Assembly: GCA_029582155.1 (NCBI GenBank)
Contig: CM055909.1
Span: 50,487,818-50,551,817 of the forward strand
DNA from: Panopea generosa
Taxonomy: Eukaryota; Mollusca; Bivalvia; Adapedonta; Hiatellidae
DNA: 64,000 nt
Direction of reading: 5' to 3'
A program made the translations under genes and the position numbers. Each line of letters begins with the position of its first letter. Position 1 is the first letter of the stretch. Under the pieces are notes generated by a model. That model did not search any database and was not told where the DNA came from. It worked only from the letters and a program-made list of their open reading frames with translations. This document shows, one piece after another, positions 9,180-60,468 of this stretch.

Positions 9180-9323
9180 AGCGATGGTCAGCCAGGCCGA
9201 GGTCGAGTGAGCACGCCCTGGAATGGTCCAAGATCAGTCATCATTCCAAGAACTGATCGTGGGTATGGATTTACCCTTAGGCATTTTATTGTATACCCGC
9301 CAGAACCAAAGGACTTTCTGAAG
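9180..9323 (+). CDS. ARHGAP21/23-like: RhoGAP21/23-like gene, exon with N-terminal half of PDZ domain
   Basis: This exon of 48 codons starts and ends between codons (phase 0-0). The acceptor is ATTTTAG at 9173-9179 and the donor is GTATGT at 9324. The translation holds the PDZ carboxylate-binding loop GYGF (exon residues 28-31) followed by [12 protein letters not shown]. That stretch is highly characteristic of ARHGAP21/ARHGAP23, PDZ-PH-RhoGAP proteins that act on small Rho-family GTPases at Golgi and junctional membranes in vertebrates (family knowledge). The other two frames contain stops. The exon opens in mid-protein, so a start-codon exon must lie upstream, and I could not recognise it in 1-9179. 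The phase and the continuation of the PDZ fold in the next two exons make the assignment firm at family level. ARHGAP21 and ARHGAP23 cannot be separated here, and an invertebrate probably has a single co-orthologue. Confidence 0.92.
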
Positions 9324-9394
9324 GTATGTAGGCTAAAAAGGGTATAATTTACCCCCACCAAATAAATGGTGAATTATTGGTGGTGGATAATATA

Positions 9395-45520: not shown

Positions 45521-45580
45521 GAAGGTAAACAATTTACAATATTATCCACTGTCTTTATTTTTTTAATTTTCTACTTTCAG

Positions 45581-45822
45581 AACTTTACTTTCAAAGGATC
45601 CAACAAGGCAGCCTCGAACCACTGGATACGATTTTCGTCAAAAACGTCAAGGATGGAGGACCTGCCCACAAAGCAGGACTGAATCCTGGGGACCGGATAA
45701 TATCTGTTAACGGGGAACCAGTGACAGGAAAGTCATACGGACAAGTTATAAATCTTATACAGCAAAGTAATGCGGACCTGAACCTGCTGGTGGTACCCAA
45801 GGAAGAAGATATTCTACAATTA
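45581..45822 (+). CDS. ARHGAP21/23-like: RhoGAP21/23-like gene, exon with C-terminal half of PDZ domain
   Basis: The acceptor is CTACTTTCAG at 45571-45580. With the carried G, the exon encodes 81 codons ending ILQL, at the donor GTACGT at 45823 (phase 0). It supplies the rest of the PDZ fold: [12 protein letters not shown] (beta-3), [21 protein letters not shown] (the GDxI turn and beta-4), then [11 protein letters not shown] (alpha-2) and the final strand LNLLVVP. The spacing and the words match the ARHGAP21/23 PDZ domain, which binds C-terminal peptides of partner proteins. The last bases of the exon and the donor are repeated many times in the intron just downstream (see the array at 45812-46905). 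The frame therefore stays open past the donor as far as 46260. A truncated minus-strand SINE ends about 60 bp upstream of the acceptor. The alternative donors at 45877-45985 are a real possibility. Confidence 0.93.
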
Positions 45823-46905
45823 GTACGTAACTTTTATGTTCTACACTTGGCACGTAACTTTTATATTCTAAAACTGGTATGTAACTTTTATATTCTACAT
45901 TTGGTATGTTACTTTTATACTCTACAATTGGTACGTAACTTTTATATTCTACATATGGTACGTAACTATTATATTCTGCAATTGGTATGTAACTTTTATA
46001 TTCTACAATTTATACATAACTTTTATATTATTTACAATTGGTACGTAACTTTTATGTTCTACATTTGGTACGTTGCTATTATGTTCTACAATTGGTACGT
46101 TACTTTTATGTTCTACAGTTGGTACGTAACTTTTGTGTTCTACAATTGGTACGTAACTTTTATATTCTATACTTGGTATGTTACTTTTATGTTCTACACT
46201 TGGTACGTAACTTTTATGTTCTACACTTGGTACGTAACTTTTATGTTCTACACTTGGTAGTAACTTTTATACTCTACAATTGGTATGTAACTTTTATGCT
46301 CTACAATTGGTACATAACTTTTATATTCTACACTTGGTACGTTACTTTTATATTCTACACTTTGTACGTAACTTTTATGTTCTACACTTGGTACATAACT
46401 TTTATGTTCTACACTTGGTACGTAACTTTTATATTCTACACTTGGTACGTAACTTTTATGTTCTACACTTAGTACGTAACTTTTATATTCTACAATTAAT
46501 ATGTAACTACACTTGGTACGTAACTTTTATGTTCTACACGTTGTACGTAACTTTTATGTTCTACACTTGGTACGTAACTTTTATATTCTACACTTGGTAC
46601 GTAACTTTTATGTTCTACACTTGGTACGTAACTTTTATGTTCTACACTTGGTACGTAACTGTTATGTTCTACACTTGGTACATAACTTTTATATTCTACA
46701 ATAGGTACGTAACTTTTATTTTCTACAATTGGTACGAAACTTTTATACTCTACAAATGGTACGTAACTTTTATACTCTACAATTGGTACGTAACTTTTAT
46801 ACTCTACATTTGGTACGTAACTTTTATACTCTACATTTGGTAAGTAACTTTTATGTTCTACACTTGGTACATAACTTTTATACTCTACAATTGGTACATA
46901 ACTTT
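45812..46905 (+). repeat. 27-bp minisatellite seeded on the PDZ-exon donor, about 40 copies
   Basis: The first unit spans the exon end and donor: TTCTACAATTA (exon) then GTACGTAACTTTTAT (intron). Downstream units read TTCTACACTTG then GTACGTAACTTTTAT. I count 18 exact GGTACGTAAC words plus GTATGT and one GTAAGT variant (46849). The first seven units keep an exact 27-bp register. A 28-bp unit near 46030 shifts the frame, and a stop occurs at 46258-46260. Confidence 0.95.
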
Positions 46906-49080: not shown

Positions 49081-50866
49081 GCTTACCAGAATTCTTCCCA
49101 GTCATACGACTCTGACTATGGGGTCAACAGAGATCCCATTAGTGCCCTCTCACAAAGCGTGAACGTGGCCCAATACCAGCCTTACGACACCCATTCGTCA
49201 ATGGAAAGAAATCCCTATTTATCTAGTTCTGGTAGAGATAGAAAAGTTTTATCAACAAGTTCTTTAGATAGCCGCCTTCTCGAAGGTTCCGATTCTTTTG
49301 GAAAATTCGACCGTGAGGTTCCTCGACGAACGTTGACAACCTCCACGTCTTATACGTCCGGTTTAAGTGTCTATCGTGATCAACAGCCTGAAGAAAATAT
49401 GAATAAAACGGTGTTTCTCGATCGTAAACGAGAGTTTGAGACACGCGCAGCTCAGGAGAATGTGAATCCAAACAGTGCCAAATATTCATTCGGATTATAT
49501 TTCCCAAAAAAGGAGAGTAGGGTAAATAGTGCTGAAAACTTGTCACGATCCGTTGTGATTCGCAGATCAAGAGAAAATGTGTTACAGCCTACAGATTCTC
49601 AGGAAAACATATCAAAACTACATTCATCGAGGACGCGTAACGTTCCCATAGAATATAGGCATAGTGGCACTCCTGATCAGAAAACTGCCGACAGATTTAG
49701 GTCACAAGAAAGTTTAGGACATGAAGGGGAAAGTAGTGCGAGAAGTTCACAGCAACGATATGGTCAACAGGGTAGTTCTATTCGTCATAGCTTTCCTGAC
49801 TCTGGGGTTCAGATTTGGACCTCTCCCACACGGAGGTGTAGTGAAACTAACAGTCCTTACGGATTTGATCATGGGACATCAACTCCGGACAACTCTGCAA
49901 ATAAACGTGATAGTTACAGTTCAGCACGGCAGTATGTACCTGTCATCAATGAGTCATCAATATCTCGGAATCAAAAGATGTCTGCAAGTGTTGACAGTAT
50001 TGACCCAAGATCAAACGTGTTTCACACGGAGCATCATTTGCGGACAGCTTACAATAATAGCTCACAAAATTCTGAGCAACAAAATCAAAACGGGAGCTCG
50101 CCGAGTCGGACATTTATTGTGAAAATAGGCGATCCTCAGGAGAGGGGTAATGCGCCGAACATAACCCATGGTGCCACAGGGCAGGCTGGAAACCATTCCT
50201 ATGGGACAGCATTTGCTGTAACACGTTCCCCTGCTTCAACTGAAATTGAAATTTCTGGTAGGCAAAAGAGTGAACCTAGGATTCTTGTTTCACACCGAAA
50301 GAAACAGTTTGAAAAAAGAACTGATATTACTCCTCCACCTAATGGCGGTGGAGCTGTCAATCAAAACAGATATAAAAGTGAGATTGAAAAGATGACATTT
50401 AGAAAATTTGACAGTGTGCAGTCCAGGTTAGCATCTTTTGAAAAAAGCGGAAATGGCAGCTCCGAGCCCATGAGATCTAGGTCACAGACGCCTGTATCTG
50501 CACAACCTATAAGTAAAGTGAGGCGCATGTCACAAGAGCGCCTCCAGTCACCAGAACCCTCACAGAATTCAAATACTCAAATCGCTCAGGGAAACAGCCA
50601 ATCAAATTATCAAGATTCTGCTCCAATCAGAATATACGTGTCTCAAGGAAATTCAAGTTCCTCAGGATCACCTATTGTAGAAATAGTTCCTATGCAGTCC
50701 ACGGGATACGACCATCCTGACTCGAGAATTCAGGACCAGTATGTGGGTCATGGCAAGCAGACGGACTCGATGAGAGACATTAGAGATCAGGGGGATGCAG
50801 ACGGCAGCCACAAACCTGTGCGAAAAGCATCGTTCCTTTCTGCTGTTAACGCCCCCTACAGTAGAT
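49081..50866 (+). CDS. ARHGAP21/23-like: RhoGAP21/23-like gene, large disordered central exon
   Basis: This is by far the largest exon: 1786 nt, 595 codons plus one base. The acceptor is GATATTTCAG ending at 49080 and the donor is GTAAGT at 50867. It starts AYQNSSQSYDSDYG, continuing directly from ILQL. The frame is open throughout, with codon use unlike the AT-rich introns. The product is rich in Ser, Arg, Gln and Asn with no predicted fold, as in the linker between the PDZ and PH domains of this family. Visible features are a short basic/amphipathic stretch RKFDSVQSRLASFEKSGN (from 50401) and basophilic-kinase or 14-3-3-like sites in RRMSQERLQSPEP (50521) and VRKASFLSAVN (50818). Partner binding and phosphorylation are inference. 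Open frames on the other strand and in a second + frame within this exon are shadows. Confidence 0.95.
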
Positions 50867-51514
50867 GTAAGTATCCAACTGAAATATTTTGTTGTTAAAA
50901 TTGCGGGAACCAATATAATTCATATTTCAAAGTGAATGTTTTTACACCCTCGACTGTTGCCATAGATTGTTGTAATCGTTTTTTGCCTATATATGTTGTG
51001 GCTATAGCTCCTACTTTATGTGTCACTGTTGTAAGCAGGGCTCCCAAAGGTCAGGAAAAATTAAAGGAAGGGAATTACATGAAGGTTAGGGGAATTCATT
51101 ATTATTGGGGAATTTCAAAGCTGGTCAAAAAAAGGTTAGAATTAAGCAAAATGTCATAAAAAAATTTAATTTATTTAATTCAGTTTTGTTTTCATAATTT
51201 TCAGACCTTGCCTTTTTATCCAGACTGTTTTATCAAACAACTCCAATTTTTTAAAAATCTGGTGTTCGTGAATTAAATTACCCAAATCATGTGAAATCAG
51301 ACATTGTGGGTGGTTAAAAGGTGGAAAATTGCTCTCAATGGAAGTTGTTTCATCTGAATTGTTGACATTTTTTATAGACATTTTATCGTTACGATTGAAA
51401 AAGTTGACACAGAATATATCAGTCACCATTTCCAGTCAGTGTAAAGACAACTTAAGATGTGATCATTATCACAACATAAAGGCAAAACAAAAGCATATTT
51501 CTTTTATCAGTGTT
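50867..51514. other. Intronic, nothing recognised
   Basis: Unique AT-rich sequence after the large exon. Confidence 0.45.
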
Positions 51515-60378: not shown

Positions 60379-60468
60379 AGAGCCAGTGACAGGTCCTGGC
60401 GCCCAGTCTGGGCCGTACTACGAGGTCATGCCTTGTATTTGTGTAAAGAGAAAAGGGATCCAGCAAAT
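60379..60468 (+). CDS. ARHGAP21/23-like: RhoGAP21/23-like gene, PH domain exon (partial domain)
   Basis: A phase 0-0 exon of 30 codons. The acceptor is CTCTATTCAG ending at 60378 and the donor is GTAAGT at 60469. It encodes RASDRSWRPVWAVLRGHALY and LCKEKRDPAN, the classic PH-domain beta-2/beta-3 signature (W..VWAVLRG..LYL.K). This is the last exon recognised. The remainder of the PH domain and the RhoGAP catalytic domain, with its arginine finger, must lie beyond the window, so catalysis cannot be judged here. A 23-bp tandem array ends about 60 bp upstream of the acceptor. Confidence 0.93.

Follow-up and report, generated by a model that had tools for sequence, protein, structure and literature searches.

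A 27-bp Minisatellite Spanning the 5' Splice Site of a PDZ-Coding Exon in an ARHGAP21/23-like Gene of Panopea generosa

The PDZ-Coding Exon and Its Host Gene

The window analyzed in this study, a stretch of 64,000 nucleotides from the genome of Panopea generosa, carries on its forward strand an exon (45581–45822) that encodes only part of a PDZ domain. This exon follows an acceptor AG at 45579–45580 and ends at the native donor GTACGT at 45823 (TTA/GTACGT; here and below, the slash marks the exon end). The best solved relative of its PDZ segment is human ARHGAP21 (2yuy, E 2.9e-22). The residues DILQLAY, encoded at the end of the exon, lie beyond the point at which the 2yuy alignment ends and are presumably shared by human ARHGAP21.

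Upstream, a predicted exon with putative limits at 9180 and 9323 and the donor AAG/GTATGT at 9324 (forward strand) would encode the N-terminal part of the PDZ region, and another exon may lie between it and the exon beginning at 45581. Downstream on the same strand, the next exon starts in phase 0 at 49081 (GCT TAC CAG) and probably ends at 50866, as deduced from the donor GAT/GTAAGT at 50867. Furthermore, an exon beginning near 60379 was labelled PH-like by eye, and matches to the RhoGAP domain were located on the same strand at C16:50556071-50558769, approximately 4 to 7 kb past the window. The signs of a PDZ domain with ARHGAP21 (2yuy) as best match, of a PH exon (by eye only) and of a downstream RhoGAP domain follow each other along the strand as separate matches. 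Based on the PDZ match to ARHGAP21, the PH-like exon and the same-strand RhoGAP matches downstream, the host gene is provisionally classified as ARHGAP21/23-like. A search of the genome (1.47 Gb, 39 contigs) for a close paralogue of the PDZ exon yielded none, three weak PDZ matches being the only ones retrieved.

Structure and Probable Seed of the 27-bp Array

At its 3' end, the PDZ exon runs into a minisatellite of about 41 units of 27 bp (45809–46905, forward strand; TRF period 27 and unit alignment), which includes the last 14 exon bases as well as the 5' splice site. In the wrap-around alignment, units start at 45823, 45850, 45877 and onward in 27-bp steps. In the first-pass annotation of this stretch, the array had been described as taking in the last 11-12 exon bases together with the donor; the inclusion of exon end and donor was borne out, whereas the start reported by TRF (45809) sets the true overlap at 14 bases. 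Copies of the native GTACGT at 45823 had been placed at 45850 (with GC), 45877, 45904, 45931, 45958 and 45985, and they were indeed found at these positions, all offsets being multiples of 27. A phase break, which had been attributed to a 28-bp unit after approximately 46030, is likewise present, but the unit in question measures 29 bp, covers 46012–46040 on the forward strand, contains ATACAT in place of the GT donor and is followed by the next unit at 46041. The array shows two further irregularities: the unit at 46257 measures 26 bp, and that near 46496 is broken. At 46111–46118, one unit has TTCTACAG ahead of TTGGTACGT, an arrangement that by eye resembles an acceptor beside a donor copy.

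When the 14 bases at the exon end are compared in register with each of the 36 full-length units, 10–13 of 14 positions agree, with a mean of 11.4. Among 4122 neighbouring 14-mers outside the array, none reached this mean or the maximum of 13, the highest mean being 9.5, and of 100000 shuffled versions of the exon-end 14-mer, one attained the observed mean when compared with five units. Since the in-register match to the units exceeds that of all 4122 neighbouring 14-mers, the end of the PDZ exon is the likely seed of the array, which would have drifted later. The agreement between the exon end and the majority consensus of the whole array is weaker (11 of the last 15 bases), and shuffled units equalled it in 94 of 200000 cases in the same register and in 2253 of 200000 cases in any register.

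This modest match to the consensus in any register would also be in line with a different origin, namely an unrelated intronic minisatellite that touches the exon by chance and perhaps belongs to a family of AT-rich genome repeats. Arrays with weak similarity (68–74% identity) do occur elsewhere in the genome, on C13, C6, C4 and C9; three of the similar arrays were inspected (L004, L006 and L007, with units of 25, 27 and 24 bp, respectively), the match on C9 lying outside this inspection. However, L004 and L007 differ from the PDZ-exon array in unit length, and the 27-bp array L006 is built from another unit sequence. Moreover, the exon end matches the actual units in register better than any of its neighbours, and a chance meeting of exon and repeat is regarded as highly improbable. 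These weak matches were the only ones returned when the whole genome was searched for relatives of the array.

Copied Donors and Their Predicted Strength

Donor scores were derived from human donor frequencies and the U1 5' end; on this human-frequency scale, absolute values are therefore rough. Beyond the native donor, 37 of 39 copies retain GT, the exceptions being the first copied donor at 45850–45851 (GC, score -0.4) and the copy at 46012 (AT). The native donor TTA/GTACGT obtained a score of 1.7 and is outscored by 29 of the 39 copies, among them 18 of the form TTG/GTACGT, each with a score of 5.6. The highest value was calculated for the copy at 46840–46841 (TTG/GTAAGTAA, score 8.4, predicted U1 duplex -10.7 kcal/mol), which is located on the forward strand past the in-frame stop.

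On the human-based scale, the native donor at 45823 is weak. Within 24 bases of it, the best site, at 45827, reaches 1.96. Across the 80 exon ends of the survey presented below, the median best site was 6.9, and 8 of the 80 had a best site of 1.7 or less; for these values, the highest-scoring site in the 24 bases around each match end was taken, a procedure that is biased toward high scores and gave a median of 1.1 for control windows, 56% of which remained at or below 1.7. For three further donors of this gene, scores of 7.4–8.9 were obtained.

The five GT donors that are in frame, all on the forward strand, score 5.4–7.6 compared to 1.7 for the native site. They comprise the second copied donor at 45877–45878 (CTG/GTATGT, score 7.6), predicted to add 54 nt or 18 residues, and the copies at 45904, 45931, 45958 and 45985 (45904..45986), with predicted inserts of 27, 36, 45 and 54 residues, respectively. 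Because the copy at 45850 offers just a low-scoring GC and the one at 45877 outscores the native donor, the latter copy appears to be the most credible candidate for an alternative donor, and its use at a low level is plausible.

Duplexes with the U1 5' end were predicted at -4.1 kcal/mol or lower for 34 of the 39 copies (with -10.7 kcal/mol at 46840), as compared to -3.0 kcal/mol for the native donor. Such values are consistent with a regulatory U1-binding array, in which the donor copies would hold U1 snRNP near the exon and thereby assist the weak native site or suppress premature polyadenylation. However, the donor columns of the unit show no clear excess of conservation: variability was 0.065 in these nine columns versus 0.086 in the remaining ones, the donor columns thus being slightly less variable, while 11 of the 27 columns are invariant and the CpG within GTACGT is altered in 10 of 36 units. 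Moreover, arrays of the same class are situated at acceptors, where they need no U1 role. A regulatory function of this type would accordingly be a very improbable explanation of the array.

Reading Frame and the Repeat Peptide

The exon frame is open from 45583 to a TAG stop at 46258–46260 (forward strand; translation and unit alignment), in agreement with what had been annotated at first reading. The inserts of 18, 27, 36, 45 and 54 residues proposed there for the five GT donors were reproduced as well and agree with the phase 0 start of the exon at 49081. Donor copies between 46041 and 46230 are shifted by 2 and those between 46283 and 46472 by 1; copies from 46516 on are in phase again, yet they lie downstream of the stop.

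These features had led to the proposal of a length-variable PDZ linker, according to which the in-frame copies would serve as regulated alternative 5' splice sites, with polymorphism in array length setting the lengths of the linker. The geometry, the phase and the potential for in-frame extension on which this proposal was founded hold up, and all five GT donors within the open frame are predicted to be stronger than the native site. Furthermore, a precedent was reported for the minisatellite of human IFI6 (6-16), in which two downstream repeat units serve as splice donors and give rise to three mRNAs (PMC4526556, describing Turri et al. 1995).

As a function, however, the linker found no support, and nothing in the in-frame units points to coding constraint. 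In the exon frame, the first seven units differ by 2 synonymous and 14 nonsynonymous codons, whereas 22% synonymous differences are expected from random single changes of the unit; the observed share (2 of 16) does not deviate from the random expectation (binomial p 0.39, computed with 24%). Among the later units, 3 synonymous and 61 nonsynonymous codon differences were counted (64 in all), and the synonymous shares of the first seven and the later units (2/16 vs. 3/64) are not significantly different (Fisher p 0.26). The first seven units thus show no synonymous excess, in a sample of 16 codons that is small and leaves room for weak constraint. The open frame itself is largely a property of the unit and not special, because two of its three forward frames lack a stop and, on the opposite strand too, the array is open over long stretches.

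Two further results argue against a functional linker. The predicted 54-residue extension would be hydrophobic (mean hydropathy +0.75) where the 54 residues that normally follow are polar (-1.21), and the two other donor-side arrays detected in this genome have units that are no multiples of three. A regulated linker of variable length, as suggested by repeat geometry and donor scores, is possible, but it is considered very unlikely.

Splice-Site-Copying Arrays at Other Exons of the Genome

A set of 84 loci, comprising all 42 RhoGAP matches, 38 of the 81 myosin matches and four PDZ exons, was analyzed by TRF in strand orientation. The exon of the window (L009) and three loci judged by coordinates and scores to be segmental copies (L012, L022 and L025) were dropped, leaving 80 exons; the 78 listed PDZ matches were placed outside the survey, save those already included. 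Exon ends were defined as the match end +/-25 bases, and the control windows, taken 200-1200 bp away, may contain other exons. Some of the loci overlap or represent neighbouring exons of one gene, and L017 and L019 may be recent copies; counts are therefore not fully independent.

Arrays copying a splice site were found at 6 of the 80 exons, two of them on the donor side and four on the acceptor side. Both donor-side arrays belong to myosin exons, one ending in ESKFPK followed by GTAAGT (L050, 41-bp unit, C14:10774245-10774481) and the other in LTLKAEQ followed by GTAAGC (L068, 34-bp unit, C13:10362653-10362859), and each presents five donors including the native one. Their native donors are strong, and 7 of the 8 extra donors, four at each exon, are out of frame. 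A unit length divisible by 3 was observed for one of three donor-side arrays, that of the PDZ exon; a triplet unit is not a rule, because the units of L050 and L068 measure 41 and 34 bp, respectively.

On the acceptor side, L016, L055 and L067, located at RhoGAP and myosin exons, copy the 3' splice site and the first exon bases in units of 54, 44 and 60 bp, respectively. The fourth array, L080 (93-bp unit, 2.1 copies; G000:C16:50556323-50559430, acceptor near locus position 1477), lies at a RhoGAP exon of the same gene as the PDZ exon. The L080 repeat duplicates the 3' splice site and approximately 50 exon bases upstream, and use of the upstream copy would add a stop codon. Arrays at L013 and L064 adjoin an acceptor without copying exon sequence.

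With these included, arrays were present in 8 of 160 exon-end windows. In the flanks, 95 of 960 control windows carried one, and none occurred in 60 exon middles. The comparison of exon ends with controls gave a Fisher p of 0.054 for all eight arrays and of 0.011 when only the six splice-site-copying ones were counted. Exon-end arrays are thus not enriched over the flanks and are, if anything, depleted, which fits minisatellites that form all over the genome, with selection eliminating some of those at exons.

Relation to Known Boundary-Spanning Repeats

Minisatellite-like tandem duplications of exon-intron boundaries, termed mirages, were described in amphioxus for Adh3 and the globin genes BflGb6 and BflGb9 (PMC3087553). 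According to that description, they comprise the 5' or the 3' boundary, are unstable in length and are said not to disturb regular splicing. The features shared with the arrays reported here are a tandem duplication of the boundary at the 5' or 3' side, AG or GT in many copies and an occurrence in several genes of one genome: the PDZ-exon array spans the boundary and starts 14 bases inside the exon, GT is contained in 37 of 39 copies, and six more arrays in the genome represent both kinds of boundary (two donor, four acceptor). It differs in that another gene is involved and that it consists of about 41 short units with an open frame, known from the sequence of one assembly.

Among human genes, the VNTR in intron 18 of ABCA7 has a 25-bp unit, the first two bases of which correspond to the donor of exon 18, and retention of one unit was observed (PMC5954066). 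It has in common with the PDZ-exon array a tandem repeat at the native donor carrying donor copies, one of which was seen in use; by contrast, it is described as starting at the GT, so that exon bases are excluded, and its 25-bp unit shifts the frame on retention. The repeat units of IFI6 likewise carry multiple donors. In human duplicated genes, internal tandem repeats at exon-intron boundaries were reported to alter gene structure or introns (PMC2812944); minisatellite size, boundary position and altered gene structure are shared features, whereas the reported cases concern young paralogs and the PDZ exon has no close paralogue found. The human examples are documented by transcripts, in the case of ABCA7 by RNA together with population variation, whereas for the PDZ-exon array sequence geometry provides the evidence. 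A narrow literature search on minisatellites in mollusc introns revealed no related case, although printed ones may exist. By its sequence features, the PDZ-exon array matches the amphioxus mirage class and resembles human ABCA7 and IFI6.

Proposed Origin of the Array and Its Implications

Direct observation covers the array itself, the register of its units, the way it extends into the exon and the presence of the same class of array at other exons of the genome. Taken together with the comparisons above, the PDZ-exon array is very probably a mirage-type minisatellite that arose by chance tandem duplication, is mainly neutral and is mostly spliced out with the intron. A 27-bp segment astride the boundary (14 exon and 13 intron bases) would have been duplicated in tandem, and slippage or unequal exchange may then have expanded the array to about 40 units. 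The native site at 45823, being the 5'-most donor and the one giving the ancestral join, would be expected to stay the main splice site, and the array would be expected to leave with the intron. With many copies outscoring the native donor, a leak through 45877 (+18 residues) may plausibly occur on occasion.

More generally, leaky mis-splicing, i.e., low-level use of some copies without a function, is compatible with the mirage explanation and was not counted apart from it; its chance is placed somewhat below even. Copies past the frame break, if used in this way, would lead to premature stops and probably to mRNA decay. The unit retention observed at the exon 18 donor of ABCA7 (25-bp VNTR; PMC5954066) is in line with such a leak, as is the combination of a weak native donor with 29 of 39 higher-scoring copies, the top one at 46840. 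On the other hand, regular splicing of the amphioxus Adh3 and globin genes is reported to proceed undisturbed by their mirages (PMC3087553).

Some observations are less easily reconciled with a mainly neutral mirage. Splicing from the copies could go beyond leakage, because the native donor is weak and 29 of 39 copies score higher. Moreover, all but two of the 39 copies have preserved GT, a finding tempered by the 11 of 27 invariant columns and the near-equal variability of the donor columns. The first seven units also have a slightly larger synonymous share than those that follow, but the difference is not significant.

Splice-site-copying arrays, previously described in amphioxus and in a handful of human genes, are not rare in the genome of P. 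generosa, as indicated by six more among 80 sampled exons, and through them exons might be lengthened or introns gained. Since a single array of this kind supplies numerous donors or acceptors together, it allows the choice of the splicing machinery among near-identical sites to be studied in a natural setting. The ARHGAP21/23-like PDZ exon is a good test case, because its native donor scores below most of the copies. In this repeat-rich genome, minisatellites seeded at exon boundaries might even constitute a standing supply of extra splice sites, and the PDZ-exon array, whose in-frame copies outscore a weak native donor, might be a case in which PDZ linkers in RhoGAP proteins of individual animals are lengthened in steps of nine residues depending on allele length; the probability of this is rated as very low.

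The window as a whole is very rich in minisatellites, with 103 overlapping TRF rows between positions 608 and 63833 and several arrays exceeding 1 kb.
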